64,000 nt of DNA from Paenibacillus massiliensis subsp. panacisoli DSM 21345 (GTDB lineage Bacteria; Bacillota; Bacilli; Paenibacillales; Paenibacillaceae), in assembly GCF_000426545.1 (NCBI RefSeq), contig NZ_AUFO01000024.1:1-64000 (forward strand), written 5' to 3'. This document shows positions 32,393 through 38,691 of this stretch, in pieces (position 1 is the stretch's first letter; each line of letters opens with the position of its first letter). The translations under genes and the position numbers were made by a program. The notes under the pieces were generated by a model. It did not search any database. It was not told the origin of the DNA and was given only the letters and a program-made list of their open reading frames with translations.

Positions 32393-33457
32393 CTACCCGA
32401 TTGCATGGAGCATCTTCATAAATTCCATACAATATTTCTCAGCGCTGAATTCTTGCTGCAGATGCTTGAGCCCAGCCTCACGAATATCGTCCCTATGTCT
32501 CGGATCATTCATCAGCTCCTTGGCGCCACGTACAGCTTGCTCAATATCCCCCAGCATATAGCGCTTGCCAGTGACATTATGGATGACCGAGGCCGTCACA
32601 CCATCTGAGTTCGAGGCGAGTACAGGGCATCTGCAGCTCAGTGCCTCCAGTATCGATAACGGAGCGCCCTCTACCTTGGAGGTGGAGCAGAGCAATCCGC
32701 CAGAATCGCCTATCTGCGAATAATAATAAGCCATCTGGGCATTCGGTATATTGGAGCGGATCTCCAGGCGAGGTCCCAGCCCCAGTCCCAACACCAGCTG
32801 CTCGAATTGCTCACGTTCTGCGGGTACAGACAGACTCGCATCCTCGAACATCCACAGACGTAGCTGGGGATACTCCTGCATCAGTCGATACCCGATGTAC
32901 AGGAATTCTCTCCAATTTTTGTTGTCCTCGATTCGCCCGATCCAGGCAACAATCGGAGCATCAGGCTTCGATGCCGAATCATAGGTGAAGCTTGTTGTAT
33001 CAAAGCAATTGTTCATGTGAAACTTCGGAAGGGTCGGATACAGTTCGTTGAAGAGTTTTGCGATATGGGGTGTATTAGGATTCAACAAAGCAGATGCATG
33101 GGCCTGAACAATGGGCATAGCTTTGGTCAGTTCTGCACGTGCTACCTCCATCGGACCGTAGCCCTGAATTTCAAGCACAAGCTTGCCTTGGAATCCGAGG
33201 CTTCTGAACCGTTCAAAGCTGCTATGATCCGTTGTCACGACGATAACGTCATATTGACCATCCTGCAAAATTCGCCGTGTCTGCTCATCATCCCGAGTGA
33301 CATGAACCGGGAAGTCCACGGGATTTTGCAGCCCAGCTCCTGGCTCATAATACAGGCATTCGGCCATAATGCCACGCTGGCGAAGTGCTGAGCAGCGCTG
33401 GCGATTCAACGTCTCCATACCTCCGCTCGGGATGTAAAAAACAAACAGAACTTTCAC
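32393..33457 (-). CDS. Glycosyltransferase, GT-B fold (family 1/4-like)
   Basis: A 354-residue glycosyltransferase. The N-terminal VKVLFVFYIPSGGMETLNRQ is a GT-B acceptor-domain start with the G-G-x-E loop. The C-terminal donor-binding half contains IVAWIGRIEDNKNWREFL and VEGAPLSILEALSCRCPVLA, the E-x7-E signature of GT4-type retaining enzymes. GTG 33457 is preferred (GGAGG nine bases upstream). It follows the two larger GT genes on the same strand but is separated from them by about 190 bases. Sugar and acceptor are unknown. Confidence 0.88.
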   Translation of the reverse strand: MKVLFVFYIPSGGMETLNRQRCSALRQRGIMAECLYYEPGAGLQNPVDFPVHVTRDDEQTRRILQDGQYDVIVVTTDHSSFERFRSLGFQGKLVLEIQGYGPMEVARAELTKAMPIVQAHASALLNPNTPHIAKLFNELYPTLPKFHMNNCFDTTSFTYDSASKPDAPIVAWIGRIEDNKNWREFLYIGYRLMQEYPQLRLWMFEDASLSVPAEREQFEQLVLGLGLGPRLEIRSNIPNAQMAYYYSQIGDSGGLLCSTSKVEGAPLSILEALSCRCPVLASNSDGVTASVIHNVTGKRYMLGDIEQAVRGAKELMNDPRHRDDIREAGLKHLQQEFSAEKYCMEFMKMLHAIG

Positions 33458-33646
33458 TGCGTGCTTCCTCCCCTCCACACTTTCTTGTCTGCCTGTTGGG
33501 ACACATTAAGCCTCGTGATGGATATAACCAAAATGGATGTCGTGAACATCGCTACGAAGATAACCTTGGACCTGTGACGAACGCTAGTCGAGGCTCCGCT
33601 GTCGAATGTGTCTGAACTCATTTCTCCTGCCCTACTTCATGACCCG

Positions 33647-33943
33647 TCAATCGATCTCAAGCTGTCTTCGCAAAAAGGGTATGTCCGGGATGGTATATTG
33701 CTCAGGCAGATTTTGTTGCAGCCTAGTCCAGAGGTCGACTGTTTCGCTTCTCTGCTCCAGCTCCCGGAACCCATCCATGTTAAATAGTCGCTCCTCGTTA
33801 TACAGCTCATGCGGGTCGAGTGTCTTCAGAAAGGCAGGATCAGGGAATAGGCAAGACGCTGCCAGTAGCTCGGTTAGCTGGTGCTGCCTCTCTTCGGGAA
33901 GGACAGGACGCGTCGTGATATTGAATATGGGAATTCTCGTCAC
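33647..33943 (-). CDS. Unknown 98-residue protein coupled to the FG-GAP glycosyltransferase gene
   Basis: An acidic 98-residue protein with no recognised family: it begins VTRIPIFNITTRPVLPEE and contains LDPHELYNEERLFNMDGF. GTG 33943 overlaps the stop of the upstream gene (GTGA) and has AAAGGAG 10 bases upstream, which shows translational coupling. No signal or membrane helix is seen. The pairing suggests a partner or accessory of the large glycosyltransferase, but that is inference. Confidence 0.65.
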   Translation of the reverse strand: MTRIPIFNITTRPVLPEERQHQLTELLAASCLFPDPAFLKTLDPHELYNEERLFNMDGFRELEQRSETVDLWTRLQQNLPEQYTIPDIPFLRRQLEID

Positions 33944-36879
33944 TCTTGTGCAGCTCCTTTCACCGAATCTATCGCAGCCTGGTAGACCTGAAGTGTCCGA
34001 TTCATTAGCGTAGTCGATGACCAATGCTTCTCTGCCCATATTCGGGCCTGTTCTGCTAATTGCTGCCTGTATTCGTGTCCAGTCAACAGTAACTGAAGCG
34101 CTGCTGCCAGCTGACGTTCATTTCCCGTCTCTACAATATGACCTGTTACACCGTGCTTGATCATCTCCGGGATTCCCCCGGTGTCCGATGCGACAATGGC
34201 CGTTCCCGCCAGCTGTGCCTCCATAATCGAGAATGGAAGATTATCCTGCAAGGATGGCAGCACCATCAGATCTGACTGACGTAGCAGGGCAGGCACATCG
34301 CTCCGGTCACCAAGCAGCACTACCCGCTCCTGTAATTGGTATTCCGCAATCATGACGCTGATCTCCTCTCGCAGCACGCCATCGCCGATTAACCAGCAGC
34401 GCCACGGAAGCTTGTGCTCAGCGGCCAGCAGGCGCAGTGCCCCCAGCAGCACCCGATGACCCTTCACTGGTACGAGTCTGGCCGGACAGCTGATGATGGG
34501 TACTCCCTGCTGGAATTCAGCTTGCGTCAGGACAGGCACCTCTTTTGTACGCTTCAGGAAGCCAGCAATGTCCATTCCATAGGGAAGAACGCACAGCGAC
34601 TCCGGTGGTACCGCGAACTGTCCCATTTCACGAACCAGCCATTCGGTGGGAACGATCGTAGCATCTGCTGAAGTACAGCCATAGTACTCTTCATCTGCAA
34701 CGTACTTCCAGGCCAGGCTTTCCTTGCTTGTAATGTCCCCGGCATAGACGTGCTCCTTGGCCAGCAGCCCATGAATGGTGGATACGAGTGCGGTAGAGGC
34801 TGGCTTGACTCGTGATAGAGCCCGGGTCGAGATAATATCCTGCGTATGAATGAGATCATATTGCTTCAGATTGAACAAGGAGGCTGCCAGCTCGAAGCAA
34901 TAGCGCTCAATCTCACGATAACGGACCCAAGGCTGAATATGGGGGAGATATTTTTGATACAGGGGCATCAGTCTCTCGTATACCACTTCCTTGATCGGCC
35001 ATTTGTCCTCTATATGGCTACCATCTGTCAGGTAATAGTGCGCCATATCTGGGTGGTGGGCCAACACATCGACTGTATGCCCTTGCTGCTCCAGCTCTTT
35101 TTTGAGCAGGCGCACATAGACGTCTACGCCCCCCACGTGCGGAAGATACCAATAGGTGACGATCAGAATGCGTAAGGATCTAATGTAGGTGGGATGACCT
35201 TTGGCTATGAGAGCCGATGATAGATGAGTGCCAGAGGTGGAATCAACTATTGTGGGTGACGGCATAGTCCGGTCAGGAACGTTGGCTGGTGCTTCCGATT
35301 GTTTCGCAGAGTCGATCTGATCAAGCGAATGGGAGGACGAGGATTCAGTAGCTTGGATGAGTTCGTTAGATGCACTAGAAGTGGTTGGTGTGGTTGGTGT
35401 GGTTGGTGTGGTTGATGCAATAGTTTCGTTAGTTTTGTTAAATGCGTTTGCCGTTGACTCACTTGATGCACTTGATGCACTCGATGCAGCTAATTCCGTT
35501 GGAAGGGCTGTTTCGGTTGAGTATGTTAATCCCGTTGGTTCGCTGGAATCGTTGGAATTGGTAAATTCCACTGATGGAGTTGTTGGAGTTGTTGGAGCAG
35601 ATTGGCTTGATTCACTAGTTCCGGGGGAATGGGATGAGTTACTGGATTTTACAGAGCTAGTAGCATCCCGAGCTTTCCCTTCTTGATTGAAAATATACAC
35701 ACAGCCCGACATCCAGTGCTGACGATTCAAGCCCGACAACGCGCCGATGGCAAGCCGACTACGGCCCAGTCCTGCATCCAATACACATAGGGAGTGACCG
35801 AATAATTCATGCTCGACACCCTCCAGTTCATGCAGCACCTGTCCCGAGGAATCCAGTACATAGGTAAGGCCTGCTCTGGAGCCAATAAGCCATTGCTTCT
35901 GTCCGCTCAGTCCACTGCCAACGAAGGTTCCGAGCTGCTGGGATGCAAATGTCCCTTCCTTCTGCAGAAGCTCCCGCTGTAGCGCAACAGAATAGACGGT
36001 GACGAGTCCTCCACGCTGGTATTTGCGACTGGCATTTGGTGAGCCTATCAGGATATCTGGTATTCCGTCTCCGTCCACATCCTGTACAGCAACACGACTC
36101 CCGCCTTCATCATAAGCGCGGCTTCCCCGCCATTCGCCCAGCACGCCGTTCGGTGCGCAGATCATCACTCTCCCACTGCGTGTCATCCCATCTGCATGAT
36201 AATGAGGAGCACCGATGATCAGTTCATCTCGTCCATCACCATTGACGTCACCTGCCGCCAGTGATAGACCCAGTCCCTCTCGGGCATTTCCCATGAAGCG
36301 AGCCAAAATCTGCTTTCCATCTTGCTTGTAGACGGTAACCATTCCGTCCTGTTCCGTGCCATACATGTCTGTCTGATGGGAGGACACCGCTACCTCCGGT
36401 ACCCCGTCCCCATCCCAGTCCAGAATGGCCAGTTGAGATCCCAGACGAGCATAATCCTCCATCCCTTGCCAGCGATATAGCAATTCTCCCGACACGCCAG
36501 AGAAGACACGGATCTCTCCGCACTCTACGCAGGTGAGACTACTTGCCCGTGGAGAGGCTACAACAATCTCAGGAACGCCATCACCATTGAGATCTCCAAG
36601 CGCAAGAGCTGCTCCGAAGCAATCACCGTTGTTATTTCCCTCCAATGTATACAGTAGCTCCATATCACGGGTGTAGACATATACTCTGCCGCTAAATGGA
36701 TACGGGATAGGGTTCACTCCATTTTTATCCTCTACATAAGTGGCTGTACTGGCTGCGATAATCCATTCTTCCTGTCCGTCTCCGTTAATATCTCCCGCTA
36801 GAATACGGCTTCCGAATCGGTCATGCTCCCCCTCTCCCTCCACTTGCTTCCATAGATAAAAGGGCTGTTGCTCACTCAT
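33940..36879 (-). CDS. FG-GAP beta-propeller / glycosyltransferase family 4 fusion
   Basis: A 979-residue fusion. Residues 1-400 are FG-GAP (integrin alpha-like) repeats with at least five calcium-loop motifs: DINGDGQEE (30), DLNGDGVPE (96), DWDGDGVPE (154), DVNGDGRDE (211) and DVDGDGIPD (267). Residues about 401-565 form a Ser/Thr/Pro-rich linker with TPTTPTTPTT-type runs. Residues about 568-979 are a GT4: ILIVTYWYLPHVGGVDVYV, VSTIHGLLAKEHV, ISCPARLVPVKGHR and LPSLQDNLPFSIMEAQLAG (E-x7-E-type region). No signal peptide is present although FG-GAP proteins are usually extracellular. The ATG overlaps the preceding GT stop by four bases. Confidence 0.9.
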   Translation of the reverse strand: MSEQQPFYLWKQVEGEGEHDRFGSRILAGDINGDGQEEWIIAASTATYVEDKNGVNPIPYPFSGRVYVYTRDMELLYTLEGNNNGDCFGAALALGDLNGDGVPEIVVASPRASSLTCVECGEIRVFSGVSGELLYRWQGMEDYARLGSQLAILDWDGDGVPEVAVSSHQTDMYGTEQDGMVTVYKQDGKQILARFMGNAREGLGLSLAAGDVNGDGRDELIIGAPHYHADGMTRSGRVMICAPNGVLGEWRGSRAYDEGGSRVAVQDVDGDGIPDILIGSPNASRKYQRGGLVTVYSVALQRELLQKEGTFASQQLGTFVGSGLSGQKQWLIGSRAGLTYVLDSSGQVLHELEGVEHELFGHSLCVLDAGLGRSRLAIGALSGLNRQHWMSGCVYIFNQEGKARDATSSVKSSNSSHSPGTSESSQSAPTTPTTPSVEFTNSNDSSEPTGLTYSTETALPTELAASSASSASSESTANAFNKTNETIASTTPTTPTTPTTSSASNELIQATESSSSHSLDQIDSAKQSEAPANVPDRTMPSPTIVDSTSGTHLSSALIAKGHPTYIRSLRILIVTYWYLPHVGGVDVYVRLLKKELEQQGHTVDVLAHHPDMAHYYLTDGSHIEDKWPIKEVVYERLMPLYQKYLPHIQPWVRYREIERYCFELAASLFNLKQYDLIHTQDIISTRALSRVKPASTALVSTIHGLLAKEHVYAGDITSKESLAWKYVADEEYYGCTSADATIVPTEWLVREMGQFAVPPESLCVLPYGMDIAGFLKRTKEVPVLTQAEFQQGVPIISCPARLVPVKGHRVLLGALRLLAAEHKLPWRCWLIGDGVLREEISVMIAEYQLQERVVLLGDRSDVPALLRQSDLMVLPSLQDNLPFSIMEAQLAGTAIVASDTGGIPEMIKHGVTGHIVETGNERQLAAALQLLLTGHEYRQQLAEQARIWAEKHWSSTTLMNRTLQVYQAAIDSVKGAAQE

Positions 36880-38513
36880 TCATTCTCCACCTCTCCAAGT
36901 ACAGCTGTAATCCTGAGTTCACTGGATGTATGCAAAGTGATCTTCTGCGTATAAGGCTTGTAATCTTCCTTCACACATACAAGCTCATAGCTTCCAGGCT
37001 GAACATCACTTAGTTGAAATGCTCCGTCATGCCCGCTTCTCGCGTTGTACAATACCATCCCGGCACAATCGAGCAAATGAAGACCTGCATCTGGGATCGG
37101 CTGCGCTGTTGTCGCAGCTGTTACAACGCCTGATATGTCAGACATCTCACGGGCTAGTGATTCAGGGGCGCCACCTGCCAGGAATATGCTGCTCTGCTCT
37201 GTTCTCTTGGGCATCATGAATTCTAATAACTCCCATGGATGAGAGCATGTTATGTGATCCATCTCGGTGGTGTTTGTGGTGTTTGATGAAGCAAGGTTGG
37301 TGGCAGCATGTGTCTCCGTATATATGTCCAAAATTCGCTTCGTCATCACAGCTTCATCCCATTCGCCTCGCTTGGCTAATGCTTGCTGCGATTGACGGTG
37401 TCTCAGCACAGGGTCGTCGATTAATAGAGCAAGCCTTTGATACAGCATATCCGCATTAGCTGGCTCAACCAGGAAGCCATCCTCCCCATCATGAATCATT
37501 TCCACGATGCCGCCTACGCCAGAAGCCACTACGGGCTTTCCGGCACTTTGGGCCTCGATAATGGAATACGGAAGATTGTCCTGCAGCGATGGAAGCACCA
37601 CAATATCCGCACGGGACAATAGCTGGGGAATATCCTTGCGCTTGCCAAGCAAATATACAGAAGCCTCCAGACCAAGAGTCGCAATCTGCTCCTCCAATGT
37701 CTTCCTGAGCATACCATCGCCAATGATCCAGCAGACGAATGGATGACCGGAATCACGTAGCTTGGCAAGCGCCTTCAACAGGTATACATGTCCCTTGATG
37801 GCGACCAGTCGTGCCGGACAGGCAATGACAAGCTTATCCTCTTCTTGAGCATGCATAGGTACAGCTTTCATTAACGGCAAGGACATGCTGTGGACATAAA
37901 GCTCCTGATCCAAGCCATAGGGAACAAGATCCGTACTGGCGTGGTGGACGCCCAGATCCCCCAATCTGCGAGTCAGCCAGCGGGAGGGGACAATCAAGCG
38001 ATCAGCAGACCTCACCCCGCTGTACTCCTCACAGACAAGATACGCGCGTTCTTGAGCAGTCCGATAGCGAATTTCACCATTTACTACCCACTCCGTAGCC
38101 AGACACCCATGAATGGAGAAGATTAATGGGGTACGCGCAGGCTTATACTTGGCACAAACTGCAGAGGCATAAATATCGTGAGCATGAATGATGTCATATT
38201 GCCCCAGCTTCGCCTGGATACAGGCCAGACCAAAAGCTGCCTTCTCGATCTCCTTTCGCAGAAGCCAGCTTGTCAGGGTGATCTGTTCCTGCTGCATGCG
38301 TGCCATAATGGCTGCCTCAGCTTGATCCAGAAGCGGCTGCTTGGGGATCAGTCGTCCTTCTTTTACCAAGTAATAATGAGAGAGATTTGGATGCTGAGCG
38401 AGCACCTCCACCTCATGACCCAAATCTTCTAGCCGTGAGGACATGCCCTGCAAATGTGTCGTCACTCCGCCTGTATGGGGGTATGGCCAGTAGGTTACAA
38501 GCAAAATCTTCAA
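36876..38513 (-). CDS. Glycosyltransferase family 4 with C-terminal carboxypeptidase-regulatory-like domain
   Basis: A 545-residue protein. Residues 1 to about 400 are a GT4 with KILLVTYWPYPHTGGVTTHL, IFSIHGCLATEWV, IACPARLVAIKGHV and LPSLQDNLPYSIIEAQSAG, clearly paralogous to the GT4 half of the next gene. Residues about 455-540 resemble a carboxypeptidase-regulatory/Cna-B-like beta-sandwich (DISGVVTAATT, ARSGHDGAFQLSDVQPGSYE). TTG 38513 is the start: AAGGAAGGG ends six bases upstream. It is the first gene of the cluster. Attaching such a domain to a cytosolic GT is unusual. Confidence 0.88.
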   Translation of the reverse strand: MKILLVTYWPYPHTGGVTTHLQGMSSRLEDLGHEVEVLAQHPNLSHYYLVKEGRLIPKQPLLDQAEAAIMARMQQEQITLTSWLLRKEIEKAAFGLACIQAKLGQYDIIHAHDIYASAVCAKYKPARTPLIFSIHGCLATEWVVNGEIRYRTAQERAYLVCEEYSGVRSADRLIVPSRWLTRRLGDLGVHHASTDLVPYGLDQELYVHSMSLPLMKAVPMHAQEEDKLVIACPARLVAIKGHVYLLKALAKLRDSGHPFVCWIIGDGMLRKTLEEQIATLGLEASVYLLGKRKDIPQLLSRADIVVLPSLQDNLPYSIIEAQSAGKPVVASGVGGIVEMIHDGEDGFLVEPANADMLYQRLALLIDDPVLRHRQSQQALAKRGEWDEAVMTKRILDIYTETHAATNLASSNTTNTTEMDHITCSHPWELLEFMMPKRTEQSSIFLAGGAPESLAREMSDISGVVTAATTAQPIPDAGLHLLDCAGMVLYNARSGHDGAFQLSDVQPGSYELVCVKEDYKPYTQKITLHTSSELRITAVLGEVENE

Positions 38514-38691
38514 ACGAAGCCCTTCCTTTCCCGAACAACCGCTCACCTTACTGAGCAAATGTCACGATACGAACCCATCCCTTGGGTGAAAATCTTCGAT
38601 CCTTGCAAAAGCATAGGTCACAAGGAGTTATACTATTTAATATATTCCACTCGTTGCCGTTGGTATGGACCTTAGTTGAAGCTATGGAACG

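Follow-up and report, generated by a model that had tools for sequence, protein, structure and literature searches.

A single open reading frame of Paenibacillus massiliensis subsp. panacisoli DSM 21345 joins an integrin-type FG-GAP propeller to a GT4 glycosyltransferase. Judging from the sequence and its gene surroundings, we give a somewhat better than even chance that the product is a glycosyltransferase active in the mother cell late in sporulation, where it helps to build spore-surface glycan (crust or coat), with the propeller as a calcium-loaded docking module. The gene lies in a 64,000-nucleotide stretch of contig NZ_AUFO01000024.1 (the window) at positions 33940..36879, as in the original prediction, and is located on the minus strand, which the latter left unstated. 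It starts with ATG and encodes 979 aa. The predicted union of propeller and GT4 within one signal-less protein agrees with both Pfam and hydropathy. No membrane-like hydrophobic stretch was found across the whole protein (best 19-residue Kyte-Doolittle mean of 1.21), and no signal peptide was seen by hydropathy, the maximum being 0.21 for segments starting within the first 50 positions.

The propeller comprises residues 1-400 (35680..36879, minus strand), as indicated by Pfam, AlphaFold2, VIA-align and five calcium loops. The Pfam family FG-GAP (PF01839) matches in five stretches with an E-value of 1e-35 and 121.4 bits, against a cut-off of 22.1, and FG-GAP_3 matches with an E-value of 4.8e-18. 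Calcium loops of the form D.[DN].DG..[DE] are located at residues 30, 96, 154, 211 and 267, and all five are kept in 11 of 11 homologues, a set that includes the window protein, one truncated copy and one stand-alone propeller. Blade-type FG/LG pairs occur at residues 22, 88, 146, 203, 316 and 360 and a GG pair at 259; with a spacing of 44-66 residues, these pairs fit seven blades. The AlphaFold2 model of residues 1-405, obtained from seven aligned sequences, has a pLDDT of 80.8 and a pTM of 0.85. An integrin-type seven-bladed propeller fold is thus predicted, and the model, which the original prediction had proposed as a check on this region, resembles integrin alpha heads. Among the 50 VIA-align matches listed, superpositions on integrin alpha have Z-scores of 37.1-38.9 over 347-365 residues, with an rmsd of 2.9-3.6 and an identity of 18-20%. 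The Foldseek matches listed are integrin alpha chains with more modest TM values by query (0.48-0.70). The seven-bladed fold and the DxDxDG-type loops are common to the fusion and to the integrin alpha propeller and its bacterial relatives, as described in part of PMC3192720. However, identity to integrin alpha is only about 19%, the calcium loops occupy blades 1-5 instead of blades 4-7 or 5-7, and the window propeller, unlike integrin alpha, is fused to a GT4, with no signal peptide seen.

The GT4 domain (GTc) comprises residues 570-979 and the stop codon (33940..35172, minus strand) and was assigned by Pfam and invariant residues. Both Pfam halves of known GT4 enzymes exceed their cut-offs: PF13439 (Glyco_transf_4) at residues 582-771 (E-value 5.6e-19, 69.2 bits) and PF00534 (Glycos_transf_1) at residues 789-947 (E-value 9.6e-34, 116.8 bits). 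Residues R801, K806, D879 and E887 are invariant across six aligned homologues. EX7E is a motif of GT4 enzymes; the fusion keeps R801, K806 and E887 and differs from known GT4 enzymes in its N-terminal propeller and in a DX7E variant, where Asp replaces the first Glu. From the sequence, we infer that the domain is enzymatically active, as well as which sugar it transfers.

The first tree of the glycosyltransferases, with 30 rows, had very long branches; it was rebuilt with 24 rows, leaving out three GTd sequences, G140_GTe, G406_x and pBM600_GT4b. In the 24-row tree, a 100/100 branch sets the seven fused GT4s apart, and these share a 99/97 group with GTa, the solo GT4 of the same gene set, and one pBM600 GT4. 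The seven sequences of GTb, the neighbouring GT4, make up their own side of the 99/97 branch, and GTa, the G024 GT4 and one pBM600 GT4 are grouped at 93/86. A single fusion event would be enough to account for this, the decay in genomes G126 and G119 and the propeller-only state of G451 being later. The best plasmid relative is the Priestia megaterium pBM600 GT4 (WP_041816920.1), with 38.7% identity over residues 567-970. It resembles the GT4 of the fusion and belongs to a glycan cluster, with two genes annotated as spore coat protein about 10 kb away; unlike the fusion, it has 405 aa and no propeller.

Residues 401-569 (35173..35679, minus strand) form a flexible linker, recognised by composition and by a model pLDDT mostly below 30. 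The full-length AlphaFold2 model is poor (pLDDT 52, pTM 0.42), with the linker below 50. The linker had been described as Ser/Thr/Pro-rich and 165 residues long; the composition stands (69 of 169 residues in the window protein are Ser or Thr), and the length is 169-173 residues, depending on the choice of cut. In seven of the nine species with an intact fusion, it is only 30-62 aa long. A conserved role of the linker as a glycosylation target, which the original prediction had raised, was rejected on this variation in length. Since the length falls to 30 aa in other species, the linker is most likely a flexible tether.

In the window's genus, the propeller was found in two of 75 genomes, the window's included, and a related GT4 in 57. 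Matches in the family (8/394 genomes) consist of six intact fusions, a truncated copy in G126 and a remnant with stops in G119. The 11 matches among 392 genomes of the order sample are seven already found, fusions in G432, G420 and G406, and G451, where the propeller is alone with no fused-type GT4 after it on the same strand. With P. massiliensis (L040/G017), P. macerans (L041/G124) and Fontibacillus panacisegetis (L042/G127) counted once each, the intact single-frame fusion occurs in nine species from three families of the order, and decayed copies in two more. Conservation of the fusion was therefore borne out in other genomes, within Paenibacillus in few (2/75), and a genus-wide trait was rejected on this count. 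The class sample, searched at 1e-15, gave 6/398 matches (the window and five weaker frames of 377-387 aa) and the phylum sample, at 1e-10, gave 5/299 (the window and four others). Pfam detected propeller-type matches and no glycosyltransferase in the class-level frames L072, L074 and L075 and in all four phylum-level frames (L084-L087); a glycosyltransferase fused to the weaker FG-GAP matches outside the order was found in none of these seven sampled loci. The frames in L084-L087, of 575-618 aa, come from four distant genomes and have similar ends, and foreign DNA in the assemblies is possible. No paper on an FG-GAP and glycosyltransferase fusion, or on both in Paenibacillus, was found in one open-access literature collection.

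The gene upstream of the fusion, GTb (36876..38558, minus strand), encodes a GT4 with a C-terminal CarboxypepD_reg domain, according to Pfam. Its reading frame opens with TTG, a likelier start being near 38513, and its stop overlaps the ATG of the fusion. Like the fusion in the same operon, GTb combines a GT4 with an extra module, and its CarboxypepD_reg domain is kept in relatives. A further glycosyltransferase, GTd (32393..33478, minus strand; Pfam Glycos_transf_1), follows the small protein described below and has a homologue in the equivalent position in P. macerans, G123 and G140. In P. macerans, Fontibacillus, G123 and G140, the genes for GTa, a Lys/Arg-rich protein, GTb, the fusion and the small protein are contiguous, GTd then follows in three of these loci, and genes for a UDP-sugar dehydrogenase and an epimerase diverge from GTa. 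In the window genome, GTb, the fusion, the small protein and GTd adjoin one another, and about 50 kb of the same contig separates them from GTa and the genes of the sugar enzymes. Nucleotide-sugar enzymes and several glycosyltransferases, the gene set expected for spore-surface glycosylation, are thus present together, split by about 50 kb in the window genome. Pfam confirmed the identities of the dehydrogenase, the epimerase and, on two loci, the YhcN/YlaJ protein. This sporulation lipoprotein family is encoded beside the cluster in five of 12 species (L061, L062, L063, L065 and L066) and was not found in the examined stretches of the other seven, the window's included. A YheC/D ATP-grasp gene adjoins the G140 cluster. 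Together, the gene neighbours suggest a putative role in spore-surface glycan assembly.

Several other features of these loci were recorded. The protein encoded directly after GTa is Lys/Arg-rich and then Pro/Ala-rich (L044 10913-11989, L041 6087-7235, L042 6928-7758), matches no Pfam family and looks like a cationic coat-type protein. Proteins of 142-172 aa with a GTGPGTGPGTGPGT stretch and an acidic tail are encoded before GTb (L062 11433-11951, L064 11156-11587, L078 10553-10981); the two scanned match no Pfam family. As well as an intact GTa, G451 has a second, minus-strand GTa-like copy with a broken frame, next to the UDP-sugar dehydrogenase gene (L080 10944-12214). In G024 (L049 5608-8201), the related GT4 is directly preceded by two BNR-type propeller frames that look signal-less, the first scanned with Pfam, so that propeller and glycosyltransferase are separate neighbouring genes.

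The small protein (33647..33943, minus strand), recognised with a motif profile, contains two copies of the motif W..L..LP..Y.IPD..FL..L and consists of 98 aa from a GTG start that overlaps the stop of the fusion. The profile was built from 12 motif copies in six small ORFs and run on 821 frames of the best 28 genus loci, of which four (G024, G060, G063 and G022) had prompted the idea of a small protein. A frame of 56-88 aa directly 3′ of the GT4 matched in 28/28 loci with E-values of at most 0.0035; the other matches were one nearby (E-value 5.7) and eight elsewhere (E-values of at least 0.16). In these loci (L012-L039) and the window, the proteins after the GT4 have 56-98 aa and a Y/W..LP..Y..PD motif, and start and stop codons mostly overlap. 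In L078 and L079, which did not contribute to the profile, a frame of this type comes after the fusion too, and small motif proteins follow related GT4 genes without a propeller as well. No Pfam or NCBIfam family was over the cut-off in those scanned. We read the GT4 and the small protein as a putative enzyme/small-protein pair and would guess that the latter is an acceptor or adaptor of the GT4. Kinship of its motif to the Lys/Arg-rich protein after GTa is not claimed, the matches being patchy: E-values were 1.1e-6 in L079, 6.9e-4 in L081, 1.4e-3 in L078 and 4.4e-3 in L080, and 0.45 to 2.1 in L066, L041, L063 and L065, with no match among those listed for L042, L044 and L064.

Promoter patterns were composed of what we take to be the sigma-K consensus letters. 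Lengths and spacing of the sigma-K promoter elements are given in a section of PMC517825. A sigma-K-like −10 box, CATANNNT[AG], is located at −39 to −42 before GTa in 11/11 loci, which are related and do not represent 11 independent cases, and whose count leaves out G119 with its broken GTa; the last letter of the box was relaxed after the sites had been inspected. The strict CATANNNTA box is found in seven of the 11. Among random 90-base pieces taken from these loci, 3.9% contain the relaxed box and 1.9% the strict one, and the box precedes 18 of the 139 starts of frames of at least 250 aa in these loci, GTa included. The strict two-part sigma-K pattern occurs in 11 of the best 28 GT4 loci of the genus, compared with 4.6% of random pieces, and the −10 box alone, scored by eye, in 22, the six without it being L012-L017. 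The strict pattern precedes five of 32 starts: GTa of the window genome, G123 and G126, Fontibacillus GTa (at −379) and the YheC/D gene of G140. The 400 bases preceding GTb gave no strict site in seven of seven loci, including the window, and no −10 box with C was found before the window GTb. A one-letter-off site, AATATATTA, at −133 before the window GTb was too weak to use. The sps genes are described as sigma-K dependent, with products acting in the mother cell, in part of PMC7439481. The fusion operon of the window species would itself presumably be switched on in sporulation.

Assembly of the spore coat proceeds from the cytosol of the mother cell. Since this compartment faces the forming coat, a propeller that lacks a signal peptide could meet the spore surface and presents no paradox on an enzyme of the cytosol. 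The tension noted in the original prediction, between a domain normally found outside cells and a cytosolic enzyme, would lessen for a protein that acts in the mother cell during sporulation. In the proposed mechanism, the UDP-sugar dehydrogenase and epimerases of the gene set would provide the sugar, and the GT4 half, kin of GTa, would add it. The calcium-loaded propeller would dock the enzyme on its presumed partner, the forming coat or the acceptor, and the linker would act as a flexible tether between the two domains. Calcium depletion impairs B. subtilis crust glycans, according to part of PMC10502511. The propeller may bind calcium and the activity may depend on it, a dependence proposed because of the conserved loops and this depletion effect.

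The spore-surface reading is supported by the gene set, the YhcN/YlaJ and YheC/D neighbours, the box before GTa and the pBM600 context; retention of the propeller without a glycosyltransferase in G451 speaks against it. An enzyme that makes exopolysaccharide or cell-wall glycan in vegetative cells, with the propeller as an intracellular calcium sensor or scaffold and no tie to the spore, is possible, leaning towards unlikely. The best-scoring GT4 profiles, none over the cut-off, are general exopolysaccharide and PEP-CTERM ones, and the fusion’s own operon is without a strict sigma-K site, but the sigma-K-like box of GTa, the sporulation-family neighbours and the pBM600 context stand against this explanation. 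An assembly error or a chance join of two genes has next to no chance of being correct: the window comes from a 43-contig draft, but homologues are not always encoded as two proteins, as an artefact would demand, and one frame with differing linker lengths in nine species from separate assemblies rules it out.

The propeller might instead recognise the acceptor, a possibility raised in the original prediction; its ligand would then be the substrate protein or glycan, and not the coat as a site. The propellers of integrins have proteins as binding partners, and GTb, next to the fusion, has a beta-sandwich add-on of its own, CarboxypepD_reg; however, the best partner candidate, the small motif protein, also follows propeller-less GT4s and is not obviously the ligand of the propeller, and we consider this quite improbable. 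An extension of the spore-surface reading, in which a calcium-switched propeller docks the glycosyltransferase on the nascent coat from the side of the mother cell and the small protein is its dedicated acceptor or adaptor, so that the two would form an unrecognised enzyme-peptide pair of spore-glycan synthesis, appears distinctly unlikely.

The ytdA-ytcABC genes of B. subtilis presumably form a dehydrogenase, epimerase and glycosyltransferase set like that of the fusion in gene order; YtcC, which we take to be a solo glycosyltransferase, differs from the fused propeller-GT4 of the window. Together with other glycan genes, ytdA-ytcABC shape the B. subtilis crust, according to part of PMC7439481, and YtcC is named in part of PMC10502511 among nine glycosyltransferases potentially involved in crust glycans. 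The latter source proposes that metal-dependent GT-A enzymes are one cause of the calcium effect, an explanation that does not need the propeller; a propeller with calcium loops might still contribute to the damage that crust glycans suffer on calcium depletion. In 2020, the final legionaminic acid acceptors on the forespore and the transferring enzymes were still to be identified, according to part of PMC7439481, and in 2011 integrin-type propellers of bacteria were described in part of PMC3192720 as having no known function. A propeller-GT4 in a sporulation-linked gene set offers a testable answer to both the question of spore-glycan acceptors and enzymes and that of bacterial propeller function, and the GT4/small-protein pairs may provide a second handle on the acceptors of spore glycans.
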